Shown here: positions 37,524 to 44,120 of the stretch, piece by piece
How positions within the stretch are numbered: the stretch's first letter is position 1
Layout: each line of letters opens with the position of its first letter
Assembly: GCF_000426745.1 (NCBI RefSeq)
Contig: NZ_AUFY01000006.1
Location: 62,001-126,000 of the forward strand
Source of the DNA: Veillonella montpellierensis DSM 17217
Lineage (GTDB): Bacteria > Bacillota > Negativicutes > Veillonellales > Veillonellaceae
Reading direction: 5' to 3'
Length of the DNA stretch: 64,000 nucleotides
Program-made: the position numbers and the translations under genes
The notes under the pieces: model-generated
Database searches by the model: none
What the model saw: the letters and a program-made list of their open reading frames with translations, nothing else
Told to the model about the DNA's origin: nothing

Positions 37524-40500
37524 TTAGAATTTATAAGTAGCTTGTACTCTTGCATAATCACCTAATGAGAAATTTTCAGGACCAAATAATGTATCTCGTT
37601 TATTAGTGCCTTTTGCATCAAAAGTATAGAACATTTCCCAAAGAACATTCTTCGTTGGCACATATCCAGTACCTATAGTAAAGCTACGTATACCATCTAA
37701 ATAGCGATCTGGTAAGGATTCAGTCCCGTTGCCACCAAAGAATGAACCGTGTTGGAAATATTTATAATCTACAAACATATTCCAGCTACGAGGGACATTG
37801 ATATCTGCTTTACCAATATCTAATCGTGCAGTCCAAAAATAAGGAGTGCCACCATCAACATGTCCTTTAGCTTGATAATCCCCAGAGTCAGCCTCTTGAT
37901 ACCCTACGGAATGACCATTCATATATCGTCCAAAATTAGTTTGATTACGTCCATAGTCAAAGGATAGAATAGCACTTCTACCAAATTGCCATTTAGCCCC
38001 TATGCCCCACACATTAGCTAAGTGATTAAATTTTGACATATCATTGTTCTTGCCATTAGCTGCACCAATAGTATATGTGTCATCATTAATGGATTGCAAA
38101 TACCAAGCATTGAAACCTAAATTATGATTCAACCTGTGCTTAACTTGTAAAAATACAGTTTGATGAATGGAAGGTATCACATCTTGCTCCATAACAGATC
38201 CTTCAGTTTTAACAATTAAACCGATTGCATCCCCTAATCCGGCTCGTGGTTGTTTACTTCCATCTTCAGCAGAATATAATACTTTAGTTAAATTATAAAG
38301 ATATGATAAAAATACTTGAGGGAGACGTCCTTCAGATCCATAAATAGTTAAACCTTGCGGTGAACCTTCACCTGTAAAGCTAGATTCATAGATAGATTCA
38401 ATTAATCTGTCACTATTGATAGGTTTATATGGACCTGCGGCCCAATCATCTGGTGGTATGATTGACTCTTCTAAATCAGCAATTGTCACAGTTTTAGGCA
38501 ACTCATAATCTCCCCATGTTTCATTGACCGTAATAGGCTTCCATGTTCCATCAGCAGTTTTTTCAACAGCTCGCGTAATCATTTCATTACGATATTCATC
38601 AGTATCATAGATTTTCCATAATTTACGGATCTCATGTTTTGCAAGTTCATTATATGCAGAAATAATAGAAGCCTTTTTATTTGCTGATTGTAGATAATTC
38701 CATCCCACTTTACCATCTTTATTCGTTTCTAATGCACTAATTTCCGAACCTTTAATACTTAATGCATCACCATATTTTTCAATAAATTTCAAGTCTTCAT
38801 CTGTTGTATTACTTGTAATCTGTGTTGAAAAATTAAGGTCTAGCCCTCTTACCATGAGTTCTTTTTTTGTTTTTTTATTAATTATTTTATATACAGGTTC
38901 AATTTTATTATCTCCATAAAGAGCTAATGGAATACGAATCTTATTCATTTCCTTTCCATAAGCTTTATTTACTATTGTTACTAATCTGCGTAATATGTCA
39001 GCTCGTTTTTCTAATGGTTCATTAGCATCAACAGAATCTCTCAATTGTTTATAAAAATTAATATTTTTATCTGCTCCTTTTATGACATCTGATGGTTCTA
39101 ATGGTTTATATGAAGAATCATAATTAGTACCAGTAGCATCAGGCTTAATTCCAAGTAGTTCATTCACAGTAACTGGTCGTTTGAACTTTTCATACAAAAT
39201 ATGAGTATATGGAGAATCAATAATACCAGTACTACCTTTTAAAGACCCATAGCCTATACGAATTTGGGAATTCTGGCCCGTCCAAATAGCACGAACTCCA
39301 TCAAATTCTTTACCAAACCAGTAGCCAGTTACGCCCATAGATTCTGTTAATCGGCCAATTGAAAAGTCCCAATGATTTACATGTTTTGTAACATCTAGTT
39401 TATCAATTCTCTGTTTGTTAAGTGATTTATTCTTATCTAAATCAAGCTTCGTATCTATATTAGATGTACTAGATGCACTGCCTACTACTTTTACATGCAA
39501 TGTATCATTCATTCTAGCATCAATTCCTAATCGAAGACGTTGTCCAAATGAGTGACCATCTGCATCATACATATTTTTGCTTCCTGTCGCCACACTCGTA
39601 TCTGTACGGAATATAACACCTGCACGATTAGATCCACCATGTGCATTCCACCTTGCACGATAGTCACCAATTAAAGTAACTCCACGTTGTTTATTGCTAT
39701 CAAACGATGATGCTACAAAATCATCCAATGATAACTTAGATAAGATAAAAGGACTTTCAAAATTGCCATCACTAGTTATATCACCACTGCCAAATTTCAT
39801 GTTAATACCAAAACGATATACTCGTGACTGTATAGCTCGATCATCATCATGGTGATTGAATATATTATTAACTCCTATATATGCCAATGAATCTTTACCG
39901 ATTTGTTTTTGCAATATAAAATTCCAAATACCAAATGTTTTCTTTTTATAATCTGAACGATGTGCATAAATTTGACTAGCTTGTTTGTCTAATCCCTCCA
40001 TACTCCAATAATTGGATGAATTTGCCAAAGAATTAGAGTCTAACATATTAATATAATAATTACTCCATAAAGAACCATTCCAACCAGATTTTTTATTCGT
40101 ATAGTTAATATTAATATCAAATTTATGTACTGGTTTGTCTAATAATTGATGTGGCATAGTAGGGTCTGATTTATTAATCGCATGAAGCCAAGTATAACCT
40201 AATTTAGTAGACCAGTAATGACCAAGCTTTTGTGTAACTTCAAACTCAAGTCCTGTAATATCAGCCTTCCCTATATTTTTAAAACTATAAATAAGATCAG
40301 GTGCCACTTTCCATTTTTCAGTAAAACTCAAATAAGGTGCAAAATCCTTAACTTTACCTGTAAAGTAAGTAGTCATATAGTTTTTAATCTGGTTATGAAA
40401 TATACCTACTCGCCAAGTTGTTTTTTTATTCTCTCCTTCTAAACTAATATCATAATTAACGGATTTTTCTGGTTTTAAATTAGGATTTCCATCCCACCAC

Positions 40501-42476
40501 CAACCCATACGAGCATATCCCATAGCAATTGGTGTACTACCAAACATTTCCCAGTTATACCACAGCTCACCCATTCCTGGTTCTGTATATCCTGTACCAA
40601 TATTAGTTTTTAATCGACGATGTGGATTCCCATGAACCATGTGCGTTATGCCAAGGTTTCCAGATATATTAAGTCCAAATAAGCTGCTCCAATCAGCACG
40701 AATAATTGGTGTAAAAATCGTGTCATCTGACACTTGCCAAGTATCACCAATATAAATATGTCGTTTTTTTATCTCTCCACTACCTACAGTGATTTGATTA
40801 TTACGTTCACGATACTCACCCATAAACTTTTTACCATTATAAATAGGTGCTGTCTTATTAATTCGTGGATCATGAGAGACACCTTCAGAAAAATACTTAC
40901 CTACTATATTAGTATATGATGTATTTGCTAATGTTGGGTTTTCTCGTTCTAATGCTTCTTTAAAAGGTTGATAATTATTTAAAAACCACGATTTTGACGG
41001 CGTATCATAACCACTATTACCAGAAATGCTCCCTGTATATTTTGACATAGAAATTTCGCCTTTTTCTAAGCCATATTTAACATAGTCATTATACGACACC
41101 AAAGGTTTACTATTATCTTTTAACCCATAATATTCATAATTTTGTTGCCACACATTATTTTCATTAAATGCATAATCATGAATATGAGACCATAATAATT
41201 TTCTATTATTAGCTGCTGTGTTTGATAGACCTTCAATATTATCAACGCTATCTACCATTAAATTTTTATCATAGTCCCACGGATTCACTTTCATCGTTTT
41301 TCTATGAGGAGATGCCTTCAAACGACTACCCTCTCCTGTTTCGATAGATTGTCCAAATCCATAACTCAATACATGTTGATCGTTAAGATCTGTCATAAAA
41401 TTTGCTTGTATCGTTTTCTGGCGATGATCAACATTATCTATATATTTTAATTCATTTTTTCCTTCATAACGTGATCGACCACTATAATTAGTAAGTGCCA
41501 CATCATCTTCTTTCATTTTTGTATAATTAGACTCAATAGTCCATGCTGTATGCCCTTTTTTATCTGACCAATTAAAAGTATAATTATCTCGTTCTGACTT
41601 GCGTTTATAAATTTGTTGTGGCTCTACTTCTGCATCAGTATGTTTAACATGTCTCGATAAGTCTTCTGTATAATGGCCTATATTAAAATCCATCTTGTTA
41701 TTTTTAGAAAACTCATACGAGCCAACAGCGCCTAATTGGATAGCATTACCGCTATATCTTAATTCATTGGTTTGAAAATTTTCTTGAAATGATTCATTTT
41801 CTCCCCAAACATGTCGCCGCTTTTCAGTGGCATACACGGGCATAATATCTCTTTTACTCCCAAATATACCAATAGTAGCATTACCCATTCGCCCAGAATC
41901 TGCACGCACATAATAATTGCTATGTGGAACAAATCCTCTATCACCTTTACCTCTCAAACTCTCCATGTTAAAGGCTATTTCTGGTGCTACATTAGCTTTT
42001 TTAGTAATAACATTAATAACACCACCTACAGCATCCGAACCATATTTAGCACTGGCTGCGCCTTGAATCACTTCAATGCGCTCTACATTTTCAGTTCCTA
42101 ACCTTAGTAACTCATCAGCAGCACCTGAATATTTTGATAAATCTCCCATGACTTGTTGTCCATCTACCAAGATTAATGTATGTCGTGGCTCTGCACCACG
42201 AATTGATACACCAACACGCCCCATGGCATCAACAGTTCGAGAAACACCTGTCTGATTAAAAATAATATCTTCCACAGATTTAGCTTGTTTATCTTGTATA
42301 TCCTTTTGAGTAATAATACTAACTTGTTGCGAATTCCATTTAGCTTCCTCAACTGCTTTATTAGCACGTACAGTAACTGCATTAAGTGTAGTGGCTGCAG
42401 ATACATTACACGTTACGCAACATGATGACATCCAACATAATATACCTAGTGATAATATCACTTTTCTTTTATGCAT
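37524..42476 (-). CDS. TonB-dependent receptor fused to a second porin-like beta-barrel
   Basis: A 1650-residue outer-membrane protein. Signal peptide about 1-27 (ends VSA), TonB-box-like TLNAVTVRA near 30-38, plug about 48-165 (QKDIQDKQAKSVEDII ... VSIRGAEPRHTLILVDGQQV ... VERIEVIQGAASAKYGSDAV), then a 22-strand-type barrel closing near residue 896 with YIGVNNIFN and VYRFGINMKFG, the normal C-terminus of the family. The chain continues for 754 residues as a second barrel: GVTLIGDYRARWNAHGGSNR, SFGQRLRLGIDARMNDTL, HWDFSIGRLTESMGVTG and a terminal ARVQATYKF, resembling Negativicute putative porins. That part holds a helix-rich insert of about 270 residues. ATG at 42476 with GGAGG; a Fur-like site lies upstream. 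Ligand unknown. Confidence 0.85.
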   Translation of the reverse strand: MHKRKVILSLGILCWMSSCCVTCNVSAATTLNAVTVRANKAVEEAKWNSQQVSIITQKDIQDKQAKSVEDIIFNQTGVSRTVDAMGRVGVSIRGAEPRHTLILVDGQQVMGDLSKYSGAADELLRLGTENVERIEVIQGAASAKYGSDAVGGVINVITKKANVAPEIAFNMESLRGKGDRGFVPHSNYYVRADSGRMGNATIGIFGSKRDIMPVYATEKRRHVWGENESFQENFQTNELRYSGNAIQLGAVGSYEFSKNNKMDFNIGHYTEDLSRHVKHTDAEVEPQQIYKRKSERDNYTFNWSDKKGHTAWTIESNYTKMKEDDVALTNYSGRSRYEGKNELKYIDNVDHRQKTIQANFMTDLNDQHVLSYGFGQSIETGEGSRLKASPHRKTMKVNPWDYDKNLMVDSVDNIEGLSNTAANNRKLLWSHIHDYAFNENNVWQQNYEYYGLKDNSKPLVSYNDYVKYGLEKGEISMSKYTGSISGNSGYDTPSKSWFLNNYQPFKEALERENPTLANTSYTNIVGKYFSEGVSHDPRINKTAPIYNGKKFMGEYRERNNQITVGSGEIKKRHIYIGDTWQVSDDTIFTPIIRADWSSLFGLNISGNLGITHMVHGNPHRRLKTNIGTGYTEPGMGELWYNWEMFGSTPIAMGYARMGWWWDGNPNLKPEKSVNYDISLEGENKKTTWRVGIFHNQIKNYMTTYFTGKVKDFAPYLSFTEKWKVAPDLIYSFKNIGKADITGLEFEVTQKLGHYWSTKLGYTWLHAINKSDPTMPHQLLDKPVHKFDININYTNKKSGWNGSLWSNYYINMLDSNSLANSSNYWSMEGLDKQASQIYAHRSDYKKKTFGIWNFILQKQIGKDSLAYIGVNNIFNHHDDDRAIQSRVYRFGINMKFGSGDITSDGNFESPFILSKLSLDDFVASSFDSNKQRGVTLIGDYRARWNAHGGSNRAGVIFRTDTSVATGSKNMYDADGHSFGQRLRLGIDARMNDTLHVKVVGSASSTSNIDTKLDLDKNKSLNKQRIDKLDVTKHVNHWDFSIGRLTESMGVTGYWFGKEFDGVRAIWTGQNSQIRIGYGSLKGSTGIIDSPYTHILYEKFKRPVTVNELLGIKPDATGTNYDSSYKPLEPSDVIKGADKNINFYKQLRDSVDANEPLEKRADILRRLVTIVNKAYGKEMNKIRIPLALYGDNKIEPVYKIINKKTKKELMVRGLDLNFSTQITSNTTDEDLKFIEKYGDALSIKGSEISALETNKDGKVGWNYLQSANKKASIISAYNELAKHEIRKLWKIYDTDEYRNEMITRAVEKTADGTWKPITVNETWGDYELPKTVTIADLEESIIPPDDWAAGPYKPINSDRLIESIYESSFTGEGSPQGLTIYGSEGRLPQVFLSYLYNLTKVLYSAEDGSKQPRAGLGDAIGLIVKTEGSVMEQDVIPSIHQTVFLQVKHRLNHNLGFNAWYLQSINDDTYTIGAANGKNNDMSKFNHLANVWGIGAKWQFGRSAILSFDYGRNQTNFGRYMNGHSVGYQEADSGDYQAKGHVDGGTPYFWTARLDIGKADINVPRSWNMFVDYKYFQHGSFFGGNGTESLPDRYLDGIRSFTIGTGYVPTKNVLWEMFYTFDAKGTNKRDTLFGPENFSLGDYARVQATYKF

Positions 42477-42492
42477 AAGCACCTCCAAAATC

Positions 42493-42535
42493 GATAATAA
42501 TTTTCATTAATGTTATAGTATAGTATCACTATTTC
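42493..42535 (-). promoter_or_regulatory. promoter and Fur-like site of the TonB receptor gene
   Basis: GATAATAATTTTCATTA (42493-42509) resembles a Fur box and includes the 14-mer AATTTTCATTAATG that also stands upstream of cbiM. Just beyond it, reading leftward, are TTTACA - N17 - TACTAT elements (about 42515-42543). The site would overlap the transcription start, consistent with iron repression. Confidence 0.45.
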
Positions 42536-42769
42536 TTTGTAAATATCAAAATCCAGAATAACTCCAAAAAGATAATAAATACATGCATTTTAATCCAAAA
42601 ATGTATAGTAAGGTATGTATATTTCCCCAAAATTACCCCTAATTTTTTAATTTTACAATCATATACGACGATAATTTTATTATTTATCATCATAATAAAG
42701 TGATATGTAGATTCCCTATATGTATGTGTATACTTAGTAGTATAACGAACAATTACTAGAAAATGACCG

Positions 42770-42995
42770 TGCATGAAAGTCCTGTCTGATTAAAAATAAT
42801 ATCTCCTTCAGATTTAGCTGGTTTATCTTGTATATCTTTCTGAGAAATACTAGTAACTTTTTGAGGACTCCATTTCGCTTTTTCTATATTACGATCAGCT
42901 TTCACCTGCACATCTTGTAATCGTGAAGCTCCATATACAGGTTAACATACATACAAACCAATTAACCAAGACGTTATAGCCATCGATACATTACT
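42770..42995 (-). pseudogene. remnant of a second TonB receptor N-terminus
   Basis: The minus strand encodes VYGASRLQDVQVKADRNIEK, AKWSPQKVTSISQKDIQDKP and AKSEGDIIFNQTG, clearly paralogous to residues 28-80 of the adjacent receptor (AKWNSQQVSIITQKDIQDKQ, AKSVEDIIFNQTG). The upstream part, a would-be signal peptide (MAITSWLIGLYVC), is cut by an in-frame TAA at about 42942-42944, and the similarity stops abruptly after NQTG. It is a decayed 5' end of a duplicated receptor gene. DNA identity to 42241-42370 is easily seen. Confidence 0.8.
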
Positions 42996-43320: not shown

Positions 43321-43920
43321 TTATTTATTCTTATACATCCAATATAGATAATATATCACTAATGCATAGGTAATAATATCATAAACTTGTAAAAATGGTA
43401 CCATTGCCACTAACCGTTTAAATCCATGAACATGGATATTAGCTGCAATCAAGGCCACTACATTCAAACGATGAAGCCAAATCACCTTCTTATGTGACAT
43501 AGAAGTAGCTAATTTTTTAACCCATGGTGACAAATAGATAACACCTACAACAAATGCAATAAACATGGCAACTAATGCTGTATAGCCACCCCACCAACCT
43601 AGTACGGATTTAGCAGCTTTACCAAAATATAAGTACCAATGAGCGGCAATCAACAAGGTGCATATAATACCAAGAATACGATGTACATTATACATCTCTT
43701 TTACATTATAACGTTGTATAAACCATTTAGGTTTTGTCGCCAAATATGTCATAACAATCCACGTTACATATGGTATAAGCCCCAAATAGATTTTCCAATG
43801 GCAATCAAGCTTACCTTGTAATGCATACCCATATTCCATCATGCCAATAAAAATAGCCGATAGTACTCCTATCCAAAGCAAAATATGATATTGACTCTTG
43901 TATTGTCTTGTAGTAACCAA
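43321..43920 (-). CDS. ferric-reductase-like heme membrane protein
   Basis: A 199-residue protein with about five or six membrane helices and histidines positioned as in the Ferric_reduct domain: NVHRILGIICTLLIAAHWYL (about 79-98) and KVIWLHRLNVVALIAANIHVHG (about 144-165), a two-heme-ligand pattern. There is no FAD/NADPH domain, so electrons would come from another protein. It probably reduces Fe3+ or another acceptor in the membrane. Starts at TTG with AAGGAGAG seven bases upstream. A near-perfect Fur box stands at 43998-44010, linking it to iron and to the adjacent TonB receptor. Confidence 0.75.
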   Translation of the reverse strand: MVTTRQYKSQYHILLWIGVLSAIFIGMMEYGYALQGKLDCHWKIYLGLIPYVTWIVMTYLATKPKWFIQRYNVKEMYNVHRILGIICTLLIAAHWYLYFGKAAKSVLGWWGGYTALVAMFIAFVVGVIYLSPWVKKLATSMSHKKVIWLHRLNVVALIAANIHVHGFKRLVAMVPFLQVYDIITYALVIYYLYWMYKNK

Positions 43921-43997
43921 AATTTTCTCTCCTTATTATGCTAAAAACAACTTATAAAACCATAAAAATTATAGCAATTTTCATTTTTATTGTAAAG

Positions 43998-44010
43998 GAT
44001 AATTATTATC
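43998..44010. promoter_or_regulatory. Fur box GATAATTATTATC
   Basis: A perfect 13-base palindrome GATAATTATTATC fits the Fur 7-1-7 pattern TGATAAT-N-ATTATCA at all but the two outer bases. It is about 78 bases upstream of the ferric-reductase-like gene. A second AATTTTCATTTTTA tract, like the cbiM and receptor sites, is next to it (43976-43990). Confidence 0.65.
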
Positions 44011-44120
44011 TATATGTTAAATTATAAAATTATAACGATTAACGCTAGACTTTTACAATAACACATATAGAAAGTATAAACTCTAGTCATCCCATACGCT
44101 AACTATACATGCTAAAAATG

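Follow-up and report, generated by a model that had tools for sequence, protein, structure and literature searches.

A TonB-dependent receptor fused to an OmpM-type porin barrel in Negativicutes: a probable two-barrel outer-membrane protein of heme iron acquisition

A fused gene and its neighbours in Veillonella montpellierensis

The window analysed here is a stretch of 64,000 nucleotides from Veillonella montpellierensis DSM 17217. Its minus strand carries a frame that starts at ATG 42476, ends with a stop codon at 37524–37526 and runs uninterrupted for 1650 codons; the plus strand over 37524–42476 contains many stops. The initial annotation had reported this interval and its 1650 intact codons without giving a strand, and both are borne out on the minus strand. 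A TTG lies in frame 12 bases 5′ of the ATG. The open reading frame, its Pfam matches and its homologues identify the whole gene (37524..42476, minus strand, 1650 aa) as encoding a TonB-dependent receptor fused to an OmpM-type porin barrel. Approximately residues 1–27 (42396..42476, minus strand) form a probable signal peptide, recognized by eye and from some homologue N-termini, and a TonB-box-like stretch comes next.

The V. montpellierensis gene lies outside any heme operon. It is flanked on one side by a ferric-reductase-like gene and then upp, and on the other by glyQ-glyS (glyQ, glyS and upp were named by eye). The ferric-reductase-like gene (43321..43920, minus strand) encodes a membrane protein whose match to PF01794 falls just under the cut-off. 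Just upstream of the intact fused gene sits a degraded remnant (42765..42989, minus strand) of the N-terminal part of another fused or receptor gene; it is 51% identical to residues 8–82 and contains one stop. The HutW cluster of this organism is on a different contig, with no receptor recognized beside it. In family f3, a fused gene precedes glyQ at one locus (L101) and upp precedes others (L096, L159); the glyQ/upp neighbourhood may be an old chromosomal site.

A Fur-box-like sequence just 5′ of the start (42492..42506, no strand assigned) has two mismatches to the Fur-box consensus TGATAATNATTATCA. Another site with two mismatches (43997..44011) lies upstream of the ferric-reductase-like gene, and these are the two sites of that quality in the window. 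With up to three mismatches allowed, the window contains 19 sites versus 20.15 expected in shuffles. Upstream regions of homologues contained such a site in 30 of 31 cases, compared to 188 of 3000 background pieces. The homologues in this comparison are related, the background was drawn from DNA in general and not just from intergenic regions, more than one site is involved, and some start positions merely mark the longest frame. Regulation by Fur is hence a weak lead. A search for riboswitches that might hint at the ligand, cobalamin ones among them, found none at gathering threshold either in the window or at four loci.

Two halves, a variable linker and an internal barrel-end signal

To analyse the protein, we used a family of 65 long fused frames (1503–1829 aa), the V. 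montpellierensis gene included, from 40 genomes of five Negativicute families. The N-terminal half contains a Plug domain at residues 49–153 (42018..42332, minus strand), which matches PF07715 above the cut-off (E = 7.2e-22) and includes a conserved histidine, His99, in all 65 proteins. The receptor β-barrel follows at approximately residues 166–896 (39789..41981, minus strand), as delimited by Pfam, hhalign and segment identities. PF00593 (TonB_dep_Rec_b-barrel) matches residues 419–872 with E = 1.1e-30 and reaches profile position 436 of 436, and alignment of the receptor half to 14 stand-alone receptors extends over template columns 14–688 of 688 (hhalign, 100%, E = 4.3e-99). In NCBIfam and PDB sequence searches the plug is nearest to CirA, FepA and BtuB; all NCBIfam matches are below their cut-offs, and the colicin I receptor CirA is the best match among solved structures. 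Mean pairwise identity across the 65 frames is 0.75 in the plug and only 0.29 in a variable loop at about residues 401–560. By homology, then, residues 1–896 are a complete TonB-dependent receptor, plug and barrel, the latter probably of the 22-strand type. ExbB-ExbD-TonB genes adjoin the fused gene in several genomes, and TonB-dependent transport itself is a prediction.

The initial annotation had ended the receptor near residue 896 and likened the remainder to a Negativicute porin with an aromatic terminus, and this reading stands. VYRFGINMKFG occupies residues 886–896 of the translation, 754 residues come after it, and the chain terminates in ...YARVQATYKF. Alignment of the second half to the OmpM barrel gives 99.9% and E = 6.8e-35 (hhalign); without a large insert described below, positions 3–406 of 406 in the query align with positions 13–300 of 300 in the template. 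A profile of the porin half alone (A1) found no credible porin match in the PDB. The best hits there, neither of them credible, were to part of a klebicin (E = 0.038) and to a designed barrel (E = 0.085). Because A1 alone matched no PDB porin, the OmpM identity rests on an intermediate profile of stand-alone porins (A2), to which A1 aligns at 99.8% and E = 3.9e-29 (hhalign). A profile of 11 stand-alone porin relatives matches the OmpM cryo-EM chains 8bys (E = 1.2e-107) and 8bym (E = 1.5e-97). Residues 926–1100 by themselves align to an OmpM-type profile at 98.5% (hhalign). For controls, we aligned across the halves: the porin half scored 0.2% against the fused receptor half and 1.4% against stand-alone receptors, and the receptor half scored 2.4% against OmpM.

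Direct sequence searches point the same way. With the porin half as query, blastp retrieved 12 stand-alone frames of 411–596 aa from genomes of the same order (two are cut at an end), which match parts of query residues 928–1119 and 1469–1650. Four such stand-alone relatives were scanned with Pfam; SLH was present in 4/4 and Porin_5 in 3/4 (one under the cut-off). In the fused protein, Porin_5 matches best at residues 1524–1577 (E = 2.5e-5, 23.5 bits versus a cut-off of 22), and Pfam detected no SLH match anywhere in the 1650 aa.

The OmpM-type barrel is thus represented by two blocks. N-terminal strands occupy residues 936–1088 (39213..39671, minus strand), based on hhalign and on blastp matches to SLH porins at 928–1080, and C-terminal strands occupy residues 1408–1650 (37527..38255, minus strand), based on hhalign and on the terminal Phe, F1650, which is the final residue in 62/65 fused frames. 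Between them lies an insert of ~320 residues (1089–1407; 38256..39212, minus strand), delimited by segment identities. OmpM alignments place it at loop 4, which would put it outside the cell. Among the large segments of the protein, the insert is the least conserved (mean pairwise identity 0.18; 220–384 residues in the 65 frames), and a Pfam scan at cut-off assigned it to no family. In family f4, several stand-alone SLH porins (OmpM; L113, L114, L116) also contain an insert, helical-looking and of varying length, which follows the strand that precedes the insert of the fused proteins. Based on these alignments, the porin half is a complete OmpM-type barrel that lacks the SLH peptidoglycan anchor and carries a large insert; the barrel is probably of the 16-strand type. 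The excerpted text of PMC10628300 describes VpOmpM1 as a trimer with a 16-stranded barrel. A plasmid search with the porin half returned no match.

At the join, residues 885–896 (RVYRFGINMKFG; 39789..39824, minus strand) form an internal barrel-end signal, marked by its conservation and recognized by the general pattern of such signals. R885 and G890 are present in 65/65 frames, K894 in 64/65, N892 in 61/65 and F895 in 55/65. The inter-barrel linker comes next in the family alignment, spanning residues 897–935 (39672..39788, minus strand). It has 39 residues here and 37–72 across the 65 fused frames, with a mean pairwise identity of 0.17; the conserved barrel parts have identities of 0.49–0.58. 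The linker is presumably flexible and on the periplasmic side. Two separately closing barrels would need an internal barrel-end signal and a free linker, and a merged barrel would need neither, which argues for the former.

Distribution, descent and heme-operon context

Both ends are present in 60 of the 65 fused frames. These 60 are 1552–1829 aa long and come from 39 genomes, with 19 in family f1, 11 in f24, 7 in f3 and one each in f29 and f31. The five frames that are short at one end (L099, L106, L109, L110, L193) were retained in alignments, trees and residue counts, and one non-homologous long frame (L058, position 12) was excluded before the first alignment. The join is also found in genomes assembled as a single contig (e.g. 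G012, G014, G015, G016 and G019). The two halves are not always separate genes; the join recurs in 40 genomes, and each half also has more distant stand-alone relatives.

To define the limits of the family, we scanned 380 genomes of the class with the porin-half profile. Forty-two genomes matched at E ≤ 1e-50, and all but two of these have an open frame of at least 1500 aa. The exceptions are a broken gene (G185, 1293 aa) and a 103-aa fragment (G008); matches in 27 further genomes were weak (best E = 3.7e-15). Among 398 genomes spread over the phylum, there was no match at E ≤ 1e-10 outside the class. A scan of genome contigs yielded no fused relative, only two Bacteroidota loci in which the plug alone matched, and a scan of viral contigs yielded no relative.

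Both halves tell a similar story of descent. In the receptor-half tree, a branch with SH-aLRT 100 splits the 65 fused proteins from 14 stand-alone receptors, and in the porin-half tree a branch with the same support splits them from 11 OmpM proteins; both trees are quick and long-branched, and their root position is not known. Distances between proteins calculated from one half correlate with those from the other at 0.912, compared to a maximum of 0.176 in 1000 shuffles. For 59/65 proteins, the nearest neighbour by one half is within the three nearest by the other. This pattern fits one old fusion followed by joint descent, duplication and probably transfer. Despite its long branch, the V. montpellierensis copy has retained nearly all residues on which the other 64 proteins agree, with 106 of 106 in the receptor half and 23 of 25 in the porin half. 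Judging from these sequence comparisons, the join is conserved and under constraint.

Copy number and integrity vary. Tandem pairs of fused genes are common in relatives, and broken fused copies occur in some. Two genomes, G040 and G042 (L107–L112, L146–L161), have many copies of the fused gene each, many of them split into overlapping frames, and in G040 matches are spread over 17 contigs. Arrays in decay, cassettes for gene conversion, phase-variable genes and assembly errors are all conceivable explanations. In the single-contig genome G191, which also holds one long fused frame, a second fused gene is split into several consecutive frames (L209:4936–9703, plus strand).

In 15 of 40 genomes, representing four families, the fused gene adjoins genes for ExbB, ExbD, TonB, a flavodoxin and ChuW/HutW, an enzyme that degrades heme anaerobically. 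This arrangement is most uniform in the genus of the window, where (own locus excluded) 12/12 fused loci adjoin ExbB-ExbD-TonB-flavodoxin-radical SAM. The gene order there is AraC, fused gene(s), ExbB, ExbD, TonB, flavodoxin and radical SAM, with one fused gene in eight loci and two in four, and the radical SAM protein is over the ChuW/HutW cut-off in all 12 genomes. At L041, for example, it scores 487.9 bits against a cut-off of 400, and the flavodoxin is BilS-like, below cut-off. An identical gene set is found at the fused locus of three genomes from three other families (G054, G365, G374). In G042, G047 and G048, ExbD and TonB lie by a fused gene, joined by ExbB in two of the three. Similar hmu clusters have been noted in Veillonella dispar and V. 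atypica in a paper on the Fusobacterium flavodoxin HmuF (PMC10404700). The products of such clusters include the TonB receptor HmuR, and a second barrel is unmentioned in the excerpted text of that paper. Several TonB family proteins are listed in the V. parvula outer-membrane fraction, without sizes in the excerpted text of PMC5491611, so that fused ones are not distinguishable.

Some related clusters contain a stand-alone receptor rather than the fused gene. In G043, which has no fused gene, a 656-aa receptor takes the same position in an AraC-receptor-ExbB-ExbD-TonB-flavodoxin-radical SAM cluster, and in sister genus g4 one receptor of 690–696 aa is present in 6/6 heme clusters examined, in a different gene order. 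We also asked how HutW is distributed. Across the order, HutW scored over its cut-off in 26/26 genomes with a long fused frame versus 13/35 without one (Fisher P = 7e-8, with kinship ignored). At 14 f24 loci, neither ExbB, ExbD nor TonB was found at the threshold used (0/14). Six g3 genomes have tandem fused pairs beside CbiK and DUF454 genes, and a YadA gene is there as well in 5/6. In G008 (L162), only a fragment of the fused gene was seen and no HutW over the cut-off. What remains of its operon is an AraC gene that is split, a short piece of the radical SAM gene and the 103-aa end of the fused gene; the heme operon has seemingly been lost.

Ligand, architecture and relation to known systems

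Classical heme receptors have a histidine between FRAP-like and NPNL motifs. We found this residue in 10/10 readable stand-alone receptors (4 of the 14 were not readable) but in only 5/65 fused proteins, with the V. montpellierensis copy among the 60 that lack it. Y640, W642 and M644, near the missing histidine, are present in 65/65 fused proteins. His99 of the plug is likewise present in all 65, and the same motif occurs in 12/14 stand-alone receptors and was not found in the other two. Considering these residues together with the operon context, we regard heme as the likely ligand.

The protein may instead bind something other than heme, such as a siderophore, a metal-protein or another iron source or nutrient, with the heme neighbours being only partly shared. 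This is possible, if unlikely, and several lines of evidence favour it. The FRAP-His-NPNL histidine is missing from 60/65 fused proteins, the plug has CirA as its best match among solved structures, and the window copy, as well as the g3 and f24 copies looked at, lie outside heme operons. Moreover, in some f3 genomes with fused genes (G040, G042, G046, G047) a stand-alone receptor also lies within or close to the HutW cluster, and it could be this receptor, not the fused protein, that takes up heme there. Arguing against a different ligand are the ChuW/HutW neighbours that the fused gene has in 15 of 40 genomes and four families, the plug histidine common to most stand-alone receptors and the presence of HutW in all 26 fused-gene genomes of the order.

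Alternatively, the single chain might be cut within the linker, either while still in the periplasm or once inserted, in which case the fusion would serve to provide equal numbers of two outer-membrane proteins. In favour of this idea, small or charged residues abound in the linker, which is long and variable, and each half ends in a barrel-end signal of its own. However, we saw no conserved cleavage motif in the linkers inspected by eye (a sample of the 65) and recognized no complete stand-alone gene for the porin half. Short porin-half frames do occur in G040, G042 and G191. The one in G191 is the end of the fused gene split into several frames, and those of G042 and part of G040 have other pieces alongside; three in G040 (L151, L153, L155) cover only the last ~220–270 residues of the family, with no receptor piece recognized nearby. 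On balance, these data make cleavage improbable.

A third idea, that receptor and porin strands form one very large barrel of ~38 strands with the plug inside, seems highly improbable. The available structure prediction has no bearing against it, as AF2 run on residues 896–1650 as a single sequence without an alignment gave a pLDDT of 31.2 and a pTM of 0.23. Yet the alignments match either half, over its full length, to a barrel family that is complete and closes on its own, and the barrel-end signal is conserved at the join, ahead of a 37- to 72-residue linker with an identity of 0.17. Finally, an assembly or annotation artefact, for which the single assembly of the window is the only argument, can effectively be discarded, since the same join is present in long open frames of 40 genomes, V. 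montpellierensis and some single-contig genomes among them.

We therefore favour a protein that derives from one old Negativicute fusion, has two outer-membrane barrels and probably functions in the acquisition of iron from heme or hemoproteins. Homology suggests that the two barrels close separately, with closure of the second suggested by its end-to-end match to OmpM. In this two-barrel protein, the receptor half would bind heme or a heme protein and import the ligand with TonB energy. The porin half would act as a tethered partner barrel beside the receptor, its outside domain capturing or presenting ligand, and such a helper role is presumed. It may also be an open pore, which could, as the initial annotation suggested, pass products of a ligand captured by the receptor. 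A more elaborate arrangement can be envisaged, in which the OmpM halves trimerise to give a three-pore core with three tethered TonB receptors around it; the loop-4 domain would hold a large heme protein while the receptor takes the heme. We consider this covalent supercomplex speculative and rather doubtful. If true, a gated active importer and an open pore would be coupled within a single natural chain, and the set of porins thought to be present in the Veillonella-type cell would grow.

In the fused proteins, two predicted outer-membrane barrels from different families share a chain that is natural and conserved. The barrel-end signal lies in the middle of this chain, so BAM would need to recognize an internal signal and close two barrels from a single substrate. 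The fused protein could thus be used to test directly how the assembly of a barrel begins and finishes. The stand-alone receptor of G043, located at the same operon position, offers a comparison for what the second barrel adds. The findings also bear on work in V. parvula (excerpted text of PMC10628300), as relatives, probably Veillonella, have OmpM-type barrels fused to receptors.

How new is this architecture? The initial annotation had judged that it would be new, which goes too far for the presence of several barrels per chain, as this has been proposed already (excerpted text of PMC8592465). For the pairing of a receptor barrel and a porin barrel in one chain, no title or abstract among the literature matches listed describes such a fusion. 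PMC8592465 credits the proposal of multi-barrel outer-membrane proteins to Solan et al. 2021, and the GfcD/YjbH model resembles the fused protein in having two predicted outer-membrane barrels in one chain. The GfcD model differs in that it consists of 12- and 13-stranded barrels with an alpha/beta domain between them, and the excerpted text of PMC8592465 mentions no plugged TonB receptor with an OmpM porin.

With HmuR-type heme receptors of hmuW/hmuF operons, the fused proteins share the plug, the receptor barrel and the plug His and, in 15/40 fused-gene genomes, the cluster of ExbB, ExbD, TonB, flavodoxin and ChuW/HutW. Unlike classical heme receptors, most of them have no FRAP-His-NPNL histidine. 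The stand-alone receptors in our comparison (656–696 aa) stop after one barrel, whereas the fused proteins add a second, and in contrast to usual TonB-dependent receptors the chain continues for 754 residues past the receptor barrel. Similarity to OmpM, the SLH-porin of diderm Firmicutes (VpOmpM1, 8bym/8bys), extends over the whole OmpM barrel. The fused protein differs from OmpM, which has an N-terminal SLH domain and stalk, in that no SLH domain was detected, a receptor precedes the barrel, and an insert of ~320 residues is present at the inferred loop 4.
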